From contig JACPZS010000039.1 of assembly GCA_016195385.1 (NCBI GenBank), positions 1-64,000 on the forward strand: DNA of 64,000 nucleotides, in the 5' to 3' direction. Positions 46,219 through 52,944 of this stretch are shown here, piece after piece (the stretch's first letter is position 1; each line of letters starts with the position of its first letter). This DNA is from Verrucomicrobiota bacterium. Lineage in GTDB: Bacteria; Verrucomicrobiota; Verrucomicrobiia; Limisphaerales; JACPZS01. Below the pieces are notes generated by a model, which saw only the letters and a list, made by a program, of their open reading frames with translations, had not been told where the DNA came from and did no database searches. The position numbers were made by a program, and so were the translations under genes.

Positions 46219-46902
46219 TTAAATCCTCATGGCCTGCTCCAACTCCGCCACGCGCTTTTTCACCAGCGGCCCCAGCCGGTGTTTCGCGAGATAAACTCGC
46301 GCCGTGCTCACACCTATCGTCCGCGCCACTTCACGCGGTGAAAGCCCGCGCAGCACGTGCAGTTCGAACATCTGACAGTCCTTCAAATTCGCCTCCGCCT
46401 TCACACGAGTCAGTGCCGCCGCTAGGACCGTGCATTGCCAATCTTCATTCCACGCCGTTTCAAGTTTTTCAACGGTCGAATCGGCGACGCGTTCCACCGT
46501 CGCTGTCCGTGAAGTTCCATCGTTCGCTGGCGCGGCCCCATCGCCCGCCTTGGCCGGTGAACTGTGGATGAGTTTGCCTTCCCACGACTGCCGTTTGCGA
46601 AGCTGGTCCTGAACGCGCCACATCGTCTGATTCAGCAGCCACGTCTTGAAGGCGCACTTCGCCGGATCGTAACGAAACTCCGGCAGCTTGCGCGCCACGC
46701 CGATCACGGTTTCCTGCACGACTTCCTCCGCCTCGGTCTCCGTGCAACCGGCTTTGAGCGCGAAGCGGAAAATCAATTCGCGATACCGCGCAAAAAACTC
46801 GCGCCAACTCGCTTGATCTTCGCAATCCTTCAACCGCTCGAGCAAACTCGCGCGCGTCGCCAGCGAATCATCCTGCCGCTCCGAAATCACGTCGGCCATC
46901 AT
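46219..46902 (-). CDS. ECF-like RNA polymerase sigma factor
   Basis: ETEAEEVVQETVIGVARKLPEFRYDPAKCAFKTWLLNQTMWRVQDQLRKRQ (regions 2.x) and REVARTIGVSTARVYLAKHRL (region 4). Confidence 0.82.
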   Translation of the reverse strand: MMADVISERQDDSLATRASLLERLKDCEDQASWREFFARYRELIFRFALKAGCTETEAEEVVQETVIGVARKLPEFRYDPAKCAFKTWLLNQTMWRVQDQLRKRQSWEGKLIHSSPAKAGDGAAPANDGTSRTATVERVADSTVEKLETAWNEDWQCTVLAAALTRVKAEANLKDCQMFELHVLRGLSPREVARTIGVSTARVYLAKHRLGPLVKKRVAELEQAMRI

Positions 46903-47003: not shown

Positions 47004-47035
47004 TTGACAGAGCTTCGCGGTAAGCCAATCTTACC
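47004..47035 (+). promoter_or_regulatory. Promoter/operator candidate of the VapBC-like operon
   Basis: TTGACA at 47004-47009 and a perfect inverted repeat GGTAAG-ccaat-CTTACC at 47019-47035, immediately upstream of the ATG at 47038. Confidence 0.55.
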
Positions 47036-47037
47036 AC

Positions 47038-47298
47038 ATGACAGCGAGCATTTCGACAAAAGGCCAGATTGTTCTCCCGAAGCAATTGCGTGAGTTGGAC
47101 AAGATTCAACCGGCGGATGATTTCCATGTTACCCGTTTAGGCCCCGGAAAGTATCTCTATCAGCGGATTCAAAAGCCGCGCCAGCAAAACGCGACACTAA
47201 CCATTGGCAAAGACGGGCTGCCCATCTTTCGAGTTCCGAAGGGCGCTCCGAGGTTAACGACCGAAGAAGTCAAACGATTGGAAGCTGAGTTGCCGTGA
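47038..47298 (+). CDS. AbrB/SpoVT-type antitoxin (VapB-like)
   Basis: MTASISTKGQIVLPKQLRELDKIQPADDFHV; 4-nt overlap with a PIN gene. Confidence 0.8.
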   Translation: MTASISTKGQIVLPKQLRELDKIQPADDFHVTRLGPGKYLYQRIQKPRQQNATLTIGKDGLPIFRVPKGAPRLTTEEVKRLEAELP

Positions 47299-47696
47299 CT
47301 CGCCTGCTCGACACCAATGTGCTCATTGCCCTGACGTGGCCGAACCACACCGAGCACCGCAAAACCAGACAATGGTTTCGAGGAGTGGACAGTTTTGCGA
47401 CCTGCCCGATCACTCAACTTGGCTTCTGCCGTATCTCCACGCACTTGAAGTACGCGGCCAGCCCGGATGATGCGTTGGCCGCCATTCGTGCGTGGATTGG
47501 GCATGTTAACCACGAATTCTGGCCGGACGATGTTAGGATGGATGACGCCCGGCTACCCAAGATTCGCGGCCACCAACAGTTCACGGACGCTTATCTCTTC
47601 GCCCTAGCCCGCAAACACTGCGGAAAGTTGGCCAGCTTGGATCTCGGCTTTCGCAGCCTGGCCACTGCCGCACCCGCTCATTTGGAACTCATTTAG
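47295..47696 (+). CDS. PIN-domain toxin (VapC-like)
   Basis: MTRLLDTNVLIALTWPNHTEHRKTRQWF, ITQLGFCRI, TDAYLFALARKHCGKLASLDLGF. Confidence 0.85.
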   Translation: MTRLLDTNVLIALTWPNHTEHRKTRQWFRGVDSFATCPITQLGFCRISTHLKYAASPDDALAAIRAWIGHVNHEFWPDDVRMDDARLPKIRGHQQFTDAYLFALARKHCGKLASLDLGFRSLATAAPAHLELI

Positions 47697-47738
47697 CGGC
47701 GCAACCACGCCGCTTCCGCCCACGCCGCCCATTTTCAT

Positions 47739-48299
47739 GTGTCGCAGCGGATACTTGGCGGGTTTCTCGGATTGGTAGTTCCACAAACGTTGGAGTCGCC
47801 GGCGGTGTTTTCAGAGAACTCCTCTGAAGTGATAGATTTTCCGAAACCCGTCCGTTTAACGGTTATGAAACGCATCGGAACATTCGCAACTTCTGGCCAC
47901 CGCTCAACGAAGAGGGGAATCACCATTTCATTGACTGCAAGAACGATTTCAGTCGCCGGGCAACTTTTCGCCGCGGCGGAATCAATTCTGCGACCTGTCG
48001 GGCGAAATTATTCGGCGGTTGCACAAACTTCTTCGACCAGCGCGCAAACCCTCGCTGCGACTACAACGCCCCTTGCAACGTCTGCGAGAACTTTTGCAGC
48101 CATTGAACAATCTCTTGCGACGGTTGCCAGAACTCTATCAGCGTCCGCAATAACTCTGGCGACCGTCAAAACAATTCTAGCAAAGCCCGCGAGAACTATT
48201 TCGGCGGTCCAAACAACTCTTGCAGCGGCTGCGAGAACTATTTTGACCGCCGCTACAACTGTTTTAGCCCCTAAAACAACCCTCGCAACGGCTCAATAA
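47739..48299 (+). CDS. Questionable ORF containing most of the 21-bp array as 7-residue repeats
   Basis: GTG start (alternative ATG at 47865); C-terminal heptads such as TLATVKT, TISAVQT, TLAAAAR, TVLAPKT. May not be a real protein. Confidence 0.3.
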   Translation: MSQRILGGFLGLVVPQTLESPAVFSENSSEVIDFPKPVRLTVMKRIGTFATSGHRSTKRGITISLTARTISVAGQLFAAAESILRPVGRNYSAVAQTSSTSAQTLAATTTPLATSARTFAAIEQSLATVARTLSASAITLATVKTILAKPARTISAVQTTLAAAARTILTAATTVLAPKTTLATAQ

Positions 48300-48341
48300 A
48301 CTGTTTTAACCGCTGAAATAACCCTCTCAACCATTGAAAAT
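47922..48341 (+). repeat. Degenerate tandem array: 20 units of exactly 21 bp
   Basis: Units fall at 47922+21k with no indels. Conservation over 20 units: pos1 A 17, pos5 T 18, pos11 C 17, pos21 A 18. Example units ACTCTTGCAGCGGCTGCGAGA and ACTGTTTTAGCCCCTAAAACA. Confidence 0.9.
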
Positions 48342-48443
48342 GGCCTAAAAACTCAAAAAACAGCAAAAAAGCCCGAAAAGCACCCAGACTTAGCACCCCA
48401 GATCCCAGACCCAAAACCCGAAACCCGAAACCCTAACAAGTTT

Positions 48444-49124
48444 ATGCCCAAAGCCTACTTCATCCCGCCCGACGATGCCGGCAAATGCACCTGGCTCAGT
48501 AACTTCGCCGCCAAACTGCCCACTCACGCCCCGCTCGTCGGCGTCACTCCGGCGGAAGTCGCTGCCGTCCAGTCCGACAACCTCATGTTCGCCTACGCCT
48601 GCGACGCCACCAACCAGTTCAAGCAATGCGCCCAGGAATGGGTCGCCTTCAAAAACGCGCTGCGCAACGGTTCCGCCGTGGGCAGCCTGCCCGTCGCGCC
48701 CGCGCTCGCTGGCCCGCCGGCTCTCGTGCCGGCGGATATTTTCGGGCGCAACTCCGCGCTCGGCTCGCGCCTCAAGAAACACGCGGCCTACACCGACGCG
48801 ATGGGCCAGGACCTGGGCTTGATTGGCGCGGAGCAAACCACCGATCTCGTCAACCTCAAGCCGGGCTTGAAAGTGCAGATGCAGGCGGGGCGGCCAAACA
48901 TTCTGTGGACGAAGCAGGGGATGGACGGCTTGGAGATTTGGGTGGATCGCGGCACAGGCACGTTTGCATTCCTCGCGATTGACACCGTGCCAGATTATCT
49001 GGACACGGCCGCGTTGCCCGCCGCTGGCGCGAGTGCGGTGTGGAAATACAAGGCGATCTATCGTCTGCACGACGAACAGGTTGGCCAGTGGAGTGACATC
49101 CTCAGCGTCAGTGTGATGGGATGA
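48444..49124 (+). CDS. Uncharacterised protein, possibly with a C-terminal FN3-like domain
   Basis: 226 aa; MPKAYFIPPDDAGKCTWLSNFAAKL... and C-terminal GLEIWVDRGTGTFAFLAIDTVPDYLD...YKAIYRLHDEQVGQWSDILSVSVMG. Confidence 0.7.
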   Translation: MPKAYFIPPDDAGKCTWLSNFAAKLPTHAPLVGVTPAEVAAVQSDNLMFAYACDATNQFKQCAQEWVAFKNALRNGSAVGSLPVAPALAGPPALVPADIFGRNSALGSRLKKHAAYTDAMGQDLGLIGAEQTTDLVNLKPGLKVQMQAGRPNILWTKQGMDGLEIWVDRGTGTFAFLAIDTVPDYLDTAALPAAGASAVWKYKAIYRLHDEQVGQWSDILSVSVMG

Positions 49125-49149
49125 ACAACCGAACCGGCAAACCGACGGG

Positions 49150-49173
49150 AGGGCCGCTGTCCCCAGCGGCCCT
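49150..49173. terminator. Strong GC-rich hairpin downstream of the 226-aa gene (terminator or REP-like)
   Basis: AGGGCCGCTG-tccc-CAGCGGCCCT: perfect 10-bp stem, 4-nt loop, 25 nt after the stop; no T tract. Confidence 0.5.
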
Positions 49174-49354: not shown

Positions 49355-50158
49355 ATGAACTCAACTCGAACCCAAGACGGACAAAGGAACGGCTTCACGC
49401 TCATCGAACTGCTCGTCGTCATCGCCATCATCGCGATTTTGGCGTCAATGCTTCTCCCGGCGCTCGCGAAGGCCAAATCGAAAGCGCAATCTATAAAGTG
49501 CTTGGGCAATTTGCGACAGCTAGGCTTGGCATGGCACCTGTACACGCTCGATCACGACGACGCAATGCCTCCCAATTTTGAAGGCCCGGATAGCGGAGGA
49601 CTGAGTCGAGGCCTGCCGGGTTCGTGGGTTCTTGGTAATGCACAATCAGACACGACGACCAGCAATGTTCAGGGCGGCGTTCTCTACATTTATGTCAATA
49701 GCAGTGCTGTGTATCGATGCCCGGCAGACCGGTCCAGCGTCAGGGCTGTTCCAAGCCTCGTCCGTACACGCAGCTACTCGCTCAATGGCTGGTTGAACGA
49801 TGACGAAACTCGTTTGGGATACCCGCCCGAATTGTTCAAGCCCTACCTCAAGACAAAGTCCGCGCAACTGCTCAAGCCTGTGCAAGTCTTCACGTTCATT
49901 GATGAACATGAGCAAAGTATCGACGATGGTTCCTTTATCACGGTTTTCCCAGCAGTCGCAGCACCGGGCAACCAAGGCGATTGGATCAGCTTGCCTTCAG
50001 ACCGGCACGACCAAGGATGCAGCGTTGGATTCGCAGATGGTCATGCCGAGCACAAGCGATGGAAAGCTCCCAAACGGTTCGAAATCCCAAGGCGCCCTCC
50101 CGTCGGGGAAGATTTGAAGGATCTTCGTCAAATGCTTGAGTGGATCCAGCAGGAATAA
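49355..50158 (+). CDS. Prepilin-type protein with H-X9-DG motif
   Basis: [47 protein letters not shown] and [16 protein letters not shown]. Confidence 0.9.
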
Positions 50159-50232
50159 GGGCTTACTGTCGCTTGCTCCTCGCTGCCCGCGTCGTCTCGA
50201 ATACCTTTGTCATCGATCTCACAGTCAGCGAT

Positions 50233-52944
50233 ATGAAATTGCAAAACTACTTTCTCACACTGTTGCTTATTTTTGTGGTTTGCCCCGGCGACACCACTGC
50301 TCAGGCGCAAGCTTCCGTCGCTGTAGCGGCGTGGGGAAACAACGATAGTGGCCAAACGACCGTGCCCGTCGCGGCGCAAAGTGGTGTGATGGCAATTGCA
50401 GCCGGAGCGCGTCACACCGTGGCCTTAAAGAGCGACGGCTCGGTCGTAGCGTGGGGACGTAACGACAGCGGCCAAGCGACAGTGCCCGTCGTGGCGCAAA
50501 GCGGGGTCACAGCGATTGCAGCAGGAGGCAACCACACCGTGGCCTTAAAGAACGACGGCTCGGTTGTGGCGTGGGGATGGAACGAAAACGGCCAAACGAC
50601 CGTGCCCGTCGCGGCACAGAGTGGCGTTATAGCGATTGCAGCAGGAGACGCTCACAGCGTGGCCTTAAAGAGCGACGGCACCGTCGTGGCGTGGGGAGAC
50701 AACAATTCAGGCCAGGTTACAGCAGCTCCAACAACGAACGCTCCCTCTGCGACAGCAAGTCCAGTCACACTGAACGGCCAAGTCTTGAGCGGGGTGAAGG
50801 CGATTGCGGCCGGAGGTTATCACACCGTCGCCCTAAAAAGCGACGGCTCAGTGGTAGCTTGGGGACAAAACGACTCCGGCCAGGTCAATGGAACCACGTC
50901 ACGGTCGTTTGCGATAGCGAATCCAGTCAGACTGCGTGGGCAGACCTTGGACACGGTGTTATTGAGTGGAGTGATTGCGATTGCGGCTGGCGAATGGCAC
51001 ACTGTCGCCTTGAGGAACGACGGCTCAGTAGTGGCTTGGGGACACAACAGTTACGATGAAACAACAGTACCCGTCACGGCACAAAGCGGAGTGGTGGCGA
51101 TTGCGGCAGGCGGTTCCTACACAGTGGTTTTGAAGAGCGACGGAACAATTGTCGCATGGGGATATAATGAAAACGGCCAAATGATGGTGCCTATGGCGGC
51201 GCAGGGTAGAGTGACGGCGCTTGCTGCAGGCTGGTCTCACGTTGCGGCGCTCGTCATTCCAACTGCTCCCACCATCAACGTGTCTCCTGTGAGCTTGGCT
51301 GTAAGCGCGTGGCAAAGCCCCAGCTTTACCGTGACGGCCACCGGTTTCCCCCTTTACTACCGGTGGCGTAAAGACGGCGTAAATCTTGTGGGTGCGATGA
51401 ACGCCACTTACCGCCTGCCGTTCGCGCAGACGAATCATGCAGGCGAATATACCGTGGTGGTGAGCAATCCCGCCGGGAGTGTGACCAGCACCCCTCCGGC
51501 GGTGCTGACCGTGAACGCGAGCATTTCTCCAGGCACAGTCGTGGCGTGGGGAGAAAATGCTTCAGGCCAATTGGACGTACCAGTCGCGGCACAGAGCGGA
51601 GTGACGGCCATTTCGGCGGGAGGGATCCACTACTACGGCGATCGGTCGATTGGTTACAGCTTGGCCTTGAAGAACGACGGCTCAGTGGTGGCGTGGGGAA
51701 CCACCAATAATGCCTCGACCGGTCCAGACTTCCGCCAGTCGCAAGTGCCCGCTGCGGCCCAAAGCGGGGTGACGGCCATCTCGGCGGCAGACTTTCATGC
51801 CGCAGTTTTGAAGAATGACGGCACGGTGGTGGCATGGGGGGACAACCGTGCCGGCCAAGTGACAGGAATTCCAACATTCGACCAAGCAGGCGAGCCATAT
51901 TTTCCGATAGCAAGTCCCGTCACACTGAACGGCCAAGTGTTGAGAGGCGTGACGGCGATTGCGGCAGCAGGGCTTCACACGTTCGGCCTGGGCGGTTGGG
52001 GGCATACAGTGGCCCTGAAAAAGGACGGAACGGTCGTTGCTTGGGGCCACAACGGCGGCGGACAGGTCACAGGAACTCCGACGACCAACGACCCTCCGGC
52101 TGCGATCGCAAGTCCCGTCATATTGGACGGGCAGGTGTTGAGTAATATCACCGCGATCTCGGCGAGAGCAATTCACACTGTGGCATTGAAGAACGGCGGC
52201 ACGGTGGTGGCTTGGGGCTTCAACACGCACGGACAAGTCACTGGAACTCCATCAACCAACAATGGAGCTGAAGTTGCAATCGCAAATCCAGTCATACTGG
52301 ATGGCCAAGTCCTGAACGGCGTGAAAGAGATTTCGGCTGGAGCGTATCACACCGTGGCCTTGAAGTACGATGGCACAGTGGTGGCTTGGGGAGCCAACTT
52401 CTATGGCCAAGTGACAGGGACCCCAACGACTAACGAACCTTACTCCGCTATCGCAAGTCCAGTCACACTGGAAGGTCAGGTCTTGACCGGCGTGAAAACG
52501 ATCGCGGCAGGTGGTTATTACACCGCGGCCTTGAAGAACGACGGCACGGTCGTGGCGTGGGGAGACAATGGTGTGGGCGAGATCACAGGGGCTACAACAA
52601 CGAACAACTTTGGGGGTTGGGGGAGTGCAATAGCGAATCCAGTCACACTAAGAGGTCAAGTCTTGAGCGGCGTGACGGCAATCGCGGCGAGTTACATTCA
52701 CACCGTGGCTCTTCTCGGCAATGTCCCGCTGCTGCCCTCTCTAAATACTATGACCAGCGGCAATGAAATCATCATCTCCTGGCCCACGAATGCCGTCGGG
52801 TTCAGACTGCAAGCAACGACCAGTTTGGTTCCACTGGTCAATTGGATCGATTACGCCAGTCCTTCTGCGGTTCATGGTGGGCAATTCACCGTCACAAATA
52901 GTCTTTCCGGCGACGCACGTTTTTTTCGGCTACTGAAGCGGTAA
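50233..52944 (+). CDS. Exported RCC1-repeat protein with a central Ig-like domain
   Basis: Signal peptide MKLQNYFLTLLLIFVVCPGDTTAQA; repeated VVAWGxNxxGQ...AIAAGxxHTVALKxDGS; Ig-like PTINVSPVSLAVSAWQSPSFTVTATGFPLYYRWRKDGVNL. Confidence 0.88.
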   Translation: MKLQNYFLTLLLIFVVCPGDTTAQAQASVAVAAWGNNDSGQTTVPVAAQSGVMAIAAGARHTVALKSDGSVVAWGRNDSGQATVPVVAQSGVTAIAAGGNHTVALKNDGSVVAWGWNENGQTTVPVAAQSGVIAIAAGDAHSVALKSDGTVVAWGDNNSGQVTAAPTTNAPSATASPVTLNGQVLSGVKAIAAGGYHTVALKSDGSVVAWGQNDSGQVNGTTSRSFAIANPVRLRGQTLDTVLLSGVIAIAAGEWHTVALRNDGSVVAWGHNSYDETTVPVTAQSGVVAIAAGGSYTVVLKSDGTIVAWGYNENGQMMVPMAAQGRVTALAAGWSHVAALVIPTAPTINVSPVSLAVSAWQSPSFTVTATGFPLYYRWRKDGVNLVGAMNATYRLPFAQTNHAGEYTVVVSNPAGSVTSTPPAVLTVNASISPGTVVAWGENASGQLDVPVAAQSGVTAISAGGIHYYGDRSIGYSLALKNDGSVVAWGTTNNASTGPDFRQSQVPAAAQSGVTAISAADFHAAVLKNDGTVVAWGDNRAGQVTGIPTFDQAGEPYFPIASPVTLNGQVLRGVTAIAAAGLHTFGLGGWGHTVALKKDGTVVAWGHNGGGQVTGTPTTNDPPAAIASPVILDGQVLSNITAISARAIHTVALKNGGTVVAWGFNTHGQVTGTPSTNNGAEVAIANPVILDGQVLNGVKEISAGAYHTVALKYDGTVVAWGANFYGQVTGTPTTNEPYSAIASPVTLEGQVLTGVKTIAAGGYYTAALKNDGTVVAWGDNGVGEITGATTTNNFGGWGSAIANPVTLRGQVLSGVTAIAASYIHTVALLGNVPLLPSLNTMTSGNEIIISWPTNAVGFRLQATTSLVPLVNWIDYASPSAVHGGQFTVTNSLSGDARFFRLLKR

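Follow-up and report, generated by a model that had tools for sequence, protein, structure and literature searches.

The locus in the window and its neighbours

The window, a stretch of 64,000 nucleotides of DNA, belongs to contig C98 of a genome of 5.9 Mb in 263 contigs (G000, hereafter the source genome). Around an array of repeats with a period of 21 bp, it carries an ECF-type sigma factor gene, a VapBC-like pair, a gene for a 226-aa orphan protein (P226) and a hairpin (Table 1). The initial annotation had described such a 21-bp array stopping about 100 bp before the ATG, and it is indeed there: about 20 consecutive units of exactly 21 bp, whose end lies 97 bp from the start codon of P226. 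Autocorrelation over 47880-48341 gives 0.526 at lag 42, 0.494 at lag 63 and 0.478 at lag 21, against a best value of 0.341 in 1000 shuffles (lags 5-69), and the multi-lag score reaches 297 for a null maximum of 8. All the units except one exceed the 99% background of the unit profile, and a weaker periodicity upstream of 47927 may be an extension of the array. Tandem Repeats Finder gives no entry for it, because the units are only around 50% alike. The array is palindromic (p=0.002-0.007, column permutation), and no second array of period 10-59 with a comparable score was found across the window.

Table 1. Parts of the locus and their positions in the window
Feature	Positions	Strand	Remarks
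ECF-type sigma factor gene	46219..46902	-	Pfam Sigma70_r2, E 1.6e-9; divergent from the array
VapB-like antitoxin gene	47038..47298	+	MazE/AbrB match weak, below the Pfam cut-off
VapC-like PIN-domain gene	47295..47696	+	Pfam PIN above cut-off, E 2.3e-10
Period-21 array, ~20 degenerate units	47927..48346	.	palindromic consensus CTCTTgCaaCggcTGcAA.AA
A/C-rich spacer, array to start codon	48347..48443	+	paralogs have a similar spacer
P226 gene (226-aa orphan family)	48444..49124	+	ORF; helical N-terminal domain and C-terminal FN3
FN3 domain of P226, residues ~143-225	48870..49118	+	seven strands in the model; PDB matches
Perfect hairpin 3' of P226	49150..49173	+	10-bp arms, 4-nt loop

The AlphaFold2 model of P226 (mean pLDDT 87.7, pTM 0.54) contains four helices, two of them long (residues 11-32 and 36-75), and, at the C-terminus, a beta-sandwich. 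Its best PDB matches in Foldseek are FN3 domains (E ~1e-4), and FN3 domains of phage tail or fibre proteins are matched as well, so that the suspected FN3-like C-terminus is borne out. At the sequence level, P226 falls in no family of Pfam, NCBIfam or PHROGs, matches none of the PADLOC models for anti-phage defence and retrieves nothing from the PDB; by eye, it has no signal peptide. Judged by its dN/dS (0.15 against the paralog of contig C258, and 0.09-0.32 among the comparisons), P226 is under purifying selection.

The VapBC-like pair is present on the + strand, as annotated. Its place in the proposed composite locus did not hold: by tblastn, it was found at no other P226 copy among all the loci fetched by then, and the C258 paralog (93% identical) has around 160 bp where the window has VapBC. 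Thus, VapBC adjoins the array in the window but its absence at every other copy puts it outside the conserved locus, and the caveat that it could be an unrelated neighbour was justified. TA-like genes of several kinds (RelE-like, DUF5615-like/antitoxin, PIN; identified by eye) were seen near other copies (L024:1523-2097, L019:3648-4435 and L018:740-1273). These genes, varied in type and position, look like frequent insertions.

Other neighbours recur. In the source genome, a divergent ECF sigma gene stands at 5 of the 7 arrays (window, C258, C37, C55 and C195). These five are the closest members of one ECF group (the window's own gene and those 46-51% identical to it), all located divergently upstream of array loci, and the next five ECF genes of this genome are not at array loci. 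As a general partner the ECF sigma factor was rejected, being seen at array loci of the source genome only. In other genomes of the order, around 16 loci have a small XRE-type HTH gene on the same strand as the FN3 gene, 22-375 bp upstream of the array, and two further loci have one of LuxR type at an upstream distance of 123-142 bp; Pfam supports the HTH_3/HTH_31 and GerE assignments for several of them. No regulator gene was recognised beside the array at loci other than these ~18 and the 5 with ECF in the source genome. Searching 196 genomes with an XRE query matched mostly ordinary, longer XRE proteins and brought no addition.

On the 3' side, the perfect 10-bp hairpin reported after P226 exists, and no T-run follows it. 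With up to 2 mismatches allowed, the source genome has five copies, of which four are located immediately 3' of this gene family; the hairpin does not follow every copy of the gene there (three or four have it), and the C37 copy is followed by a more diverged version. At three loci of the source genome, a gene of the prepilin-type N-methylation/DUF1559-like kind comes after P226 (window 49355-50158, L024:3423-4316 and L018:157-618). Farther on in the window, 50140-52944 encodes a 934-aa protein with repeated VVAWGxNxxGQ units, RCC1-like by eye, whose gene contains a 120-bp tandem repeat (50328-50697).

Period-21 arrays upstream of P226 homologs

The linkage between array and P226 had been proposed from adjacency, with the suggestion that a 21-bp period be looked for upstream of each homolog. 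We scanned the upstream DNA of P226 homologs, testing all periods from 10 up to at least 40, and the 21-bp period was recovered in several independent sets, the arrays found at most homologs supporting the linkage. The source genome has about 8 paralogs: full-length copies on C258, C37 (70%), C95, C256 and C55, a frameshifted copy on C255, and C-terminal fragments. Upstream of all 7 full-length or near-full-length copies, window included, 21 is the top period (scores of 57-399, for shuffle maxima of ~8-12). In another set of homologs, 17 of 24 have a period-21 array upstream, as do most of 12 public loci, including that of a Fimbriimonadaceae genome (Armatimonadota) whose protein is only 26% identical. 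A sample taken across the phylum gives the same picture. Finally, in a fresh set chosen by protein match, an array was found within ~600 bp upstream of 47 of the 56 copies, with its end usually 50-270 bp from the start codon. The repeat consensus varies by locus and the 21-bp period is constant. One clade (family f7, G660-G668) and the Chthonomonas homolog have no array; the other copies devoid of one include fragments, a pseudogene interrupted by two TAGs and copies whose available upstream DNA is short.

P226 homologs occur in 50 of 320 genomes of the order, in other Verrucomicrobiota and in Armatimonadota; the public relatives are mostly Verrucomicrobiota, including a Limisphaerales bacterium. 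Within the order they are unevenly scattered, and a single genome can have as many as 9 copies. No match to the locus was obtained in phages, plasmids or IMG/VR contigs, and a phage or plasmid origin was set aside on this ground.

Background frequencies of arrays were estimated on sampled genome stretches. In 723 kb of the source genome, 7 arrays were found, all 7 upstream of genes for helical-FN3 proteins, and ~400 kb of contigs of this genome not selected for the gene contain no period-21 array; one weaker array (C67) has no helical-FN3 gene before the contig end. The picture differs in genome G622, where 400 kb contain 25 arrays of period 21 (or 42), versus one each of periods 12 and 18. 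Seven of the 25 precede P226 genes (all 7 P226 genes of the stretch have an array directly upstream), three precede other small helical proteins, and around 15 are elsewhere, some between convergent genes. Genome G292 has 9 period-21 arrays in 800 kb. Hence, the association of arrays with P226 exceeds the background, strongly in the source genome and with weaker exclusivity in G622 and G292. Among the G622 arrays without a helical-FN3 gene downstream (L224-L243; e.g., C28:53367-53546 and C52:66574-66794), that of C28 is built of units with 12 constant and 9 variable bp. In G292, three highly homogeneous arrays (C4:44156-44747, C4:47737-48143 and C49:54083-54410) share a near-identical unit, ACCAAACGGCTRGCCGGAYG, in contrast with the usual locus-specific units.

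P226 is not the only family concerned. On contig C195 of the source genome, the array precedes a gene of a second helical-FN3 family, Q210, and several Q210 relatives in other genomes also have arrays. Both families consist of proteins of ~210-230 aa with N-terminal helices and a C-terminal FN3 domain, but BLASTP detects no sequence similarity between them, and Pfam fn3 is reached by Q210 and not by P226. The Q210-like proteins are presumably those annotated as "fibronectin type III domain-containing protein".

Nature and turnover of the arrays

When compared with column-permuted controls, 50 of 65 arrays are palindromic at p<0.05 and 31 at p<0.005, and their information content is symmetric about the dyad, with a peak at ~7 bp from it. 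The initial annotation had called the array a possible repeat leader for the gene; if this means a leader RNA in which the repeats form hairpins that control the translation of P226, we regard it as very unlikely. The array does precede the gene on the same strand, and the predicted fold of its sense strand is more stable than those of shuffles (z = -4.06), which is however what any tandem palindrome would give. In 5851 arm pairs from 64 strongly palindromic arrays (some loci are included twice, with two definitions of the array), the Watson-Crick fraction is 0.529, whereas arms that vary independently would give 0.544; G-T pairs (0.095) are no more frequent than A-C pairs (0.106). With neither compensatory covariation nor G-U bias among the arms, the arrays behave as double-stranded DNA sites and not as RNA hairpins. 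Moreover, no Rfam family was matched at gathering score, and it is hard to see what a rigid 21-bp spacing would do in an RNA. The array thus looks like a DNA-level element, with the pattern expected of double-stranded sites for a dimeric protein. Intrinsic curvature would be a DNA-level alternative: a repeat of two turns (2 x 10.5 bp) would bend coherently whatever its sequence, and an upstream curvature element that dispenses with specific protein recognition would, we infer, explain why the unit is so free to change. We hold this to be just as improbable as the RNA leader, since the 10.5-bp roll component barely exceeds that of column-permuted controls (p below 0.05 in 14% of the arrays) and curvature needs no palindromy. 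A coding role, in which the 21 bp would be the 7 codons of a heptad-repeat (coiled-coil) peptide, is the least credible of all these readings. Although a 21-bp unit would keep the reading frame and some arrays do have an open one, codon-phase signal is absent from 40 of 41 arrays and stop codons interrupt all three sense frames of several, including that of the window, so that we discarded it.

The arrays change faster than their surroundings. Between the window and C258, the alignment runs from the last array units through the gene at 85%. In two pairs of paralogous loci, in genomes G622 and G629, the proteins are 95% and 94% identical and the flanks are homologous on both sides (at 86% over ~410-430 bp upstream and at 91-92% across the gene), but the arrays in between have a similarity at or near background. 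One paralog pair even has near-identical XRE recognition helices and strongly diverged arrays. A phrase AACTT/AACTC... is nevertheless common to arrays across the clade of P226 type I; this tempers the idea of a wholesale replacement of arrays in place. The arrays therefore probably share a common ancestor and turn over much faster than their flanks, with period and symmetry kept. Units that are only ~50% alike but stand in exact 21-bp register over 10-20 copies speak for selection on spacing rather than recent slippage.

Whole units may also be exchanged. On C95 and C195, an array is followed by a different FN3 gene (of the Q210 family on C195) and then by the C-terminal part of a type I P226 gene, left as a remnant, and C-terminal P226 fragments are found in several genomes. 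These displaced remnants suggest an exchange of array-gene units, one displacing another. The remnants of type I are located at C95:80293-80466 (L021), C195:32522-32632 (L023) and C37:17781-17879 (L019), behind a different array and FN3 gene or behind an inserted TA-like pair.

A candidate operator array and its alternatives

We propose, tentatively and a little short of an even chance, that the array works as a set of phased operators: a dimeric regulator, in many cases the product of a gene just upstream, would assemble on it cooperatively and switch the helical-FN3 gene. What is observed is the association of array and gene, the fixed period, the palindromy, the missing RNA covariation and coding signal, the HTH genes directly upstream at many loci and the purifying selection; we infer that a protein binds the array and controls P226, as well as the identity of this binder and the function of P226. 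In the proposed mechanism, around 10-20 degenerate palindromic sites, exactly two helical turns apart, would constitute a DNA-level regulatory element. With such spacing, a dimeric DNA-binding protein could occupy neighbouring sites cooperatively, all on the same face of the helix, and the bound array would switch the helical-FN3 gene located just downstream. The likely binder would be the regulator encoded beside the array: in many relatives this is a small HTH protein of XRE or LuxR type, and in the source genome the binder may be linked to the ECF sigma system. Exchange between tandem repeats would make the unit sequence drift fast, while selection would keep spacing and symmetry. P226 itself is a less likely binder of its own array: the P226 proteins tested are acidic, and the AlphaFold2 model shows no DNA-binding fold. 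The main difficulties of the operator reading are the loci where no HTH gene is recognisable and the ~15 of 25 arrays of G622 with no helical-FN3 gene downstream. Moreover, diverged arrays beside near-identical proteins and XRE recognition helices are awkward for a specific binder.

Two other explanations take the array out of transcription. Helical-FN3 cassettes could be captured or exchanged beside phased arrays serving as a recombination or landing platform, so that protein binding would serve recombination. The remnants of P226 type I on C95 and C195, which look as if a unit had been displaced, go in this direction, as do the C-terminal fragments of several genomes, the patchy distribution with its many copies per genome and the existence of array-only loci. 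However, the loci have neither a linked recombinase nor target-site duplications that we could identify, and the diverged arrays of paralog pairs have homologous flanks on both sides, with no gene hopping in those pairs; we consider this explanation unlikely. Alternatively, the arrays could be lineage-specific minisatellites with a mutationally preferred step of 21 bp, found near P226 simply because this intergenic space is tolerant. The numerous period-21 arrays of G622, in varied contexts, and those of G292 would fit such an origin, but the upstream association is far above chance both in the G622 stretch and in the fresh set, and the units, too diverged for recent slippage, are still in register and palindromic. 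We rate the minisatellite origin as rather improbable.

The operator reading invites comparison with known systems. Iterons often have a spacing of about two turns. In plasmid pSM19035, parS consists of contiguous 7-bp heptads bound by the RHH protein ParB (PMC9499535). Like these plasmid arrays, the period-21 arrays are made of contiguous short sites, for which a cognate DNA-binding protein and cooperative loading are expected. They differ in being chromosomal and multi-locus, with 10-20 units, a different unit at each locus and a helical-FN3 gene after them, and no Rep, ParA or ParB gene was seen beside them. Another relevant case is RptR of defence islands, a small helical regulator whose gene lies upstream of the module that it controls and which attaches, as a homodimer, to palindromic repeats of the module's promoter (PMC12255303). 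RptR operators contain three 9-bp repeats with one 6-bp palindrome, whereas our arrays have 10-20 degenerate and locus-specific 21-bp units, other regulator families and no restriction-modification genes in sight. The fixed period, and the conserved and variable parts of the units in some arrays (such as that of C28 in G622), recall CRISPR, but 21-bp units are far too short for spacers, the variation is graded and no cas-like gene was noticed among the neighbouring ORFs. Finally, the palindromes of the REP/RAYT type are also short, intergenic and present in many copies, but REPs are dispersed and share their sequence (PMC3733652), whereas the period-21 arrays are tandem, period-locked and locus-specific, and no Y1-transposase gene was noticed at their loci. 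We file the locus as a variant within the multi-site operator arrays, one that goes with an orphan protein family, similar in its working to iterons, parS and RptR but distinct in period, unit number, locus-specificity and partner genes. More doubtfully, it could represent a class of its own, neither plain operator nor known mobile or defence system. It would comprise fast-evolving, locus-specific arrays of two-turn palindromes, each paired with a helical-FN3 protein and in many cases an HTH gene, in a multi-copy, diversifying system whose exchangeable array-gene units leave C-terminal remnants.

We found no description of the array and P226 locus in the open-access literature, and our results point to an undescribed kind of regulated locus. 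Here, an orphan family is coupled to a non-coding element that is recognised by its geometry (period and symmetry) and not by its sequence, and that is missed by ordinary homology and repeat searches. Each locus unit is a predicted binding site for the candidate regulator, which offers a handle on a multi-copy FN3 family without known role in Verrucomicrobiota and Armatimonadota. The fast turnover of the arrays under fixed spacing would also make them a natural system for studying the co-evolution of a binding array and its binder.

A last feature concerns the region upstream of the arrays. The window has no short tandem repeat tract there. At around a quarter of the loci, near-perfect short tandem repeats (e.g., CCACGGCT, CCACCGCG and CCAGCGCC) lie ~25-600 bp upstream of the 21-bp array; they are 8-mers at L022, L029, L046, L048, L049, L081 and L092, 7- or 14-mers at L047, L050 and L031, and a 17-mer at L032. 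These repeats are possible phase-variation tracts.
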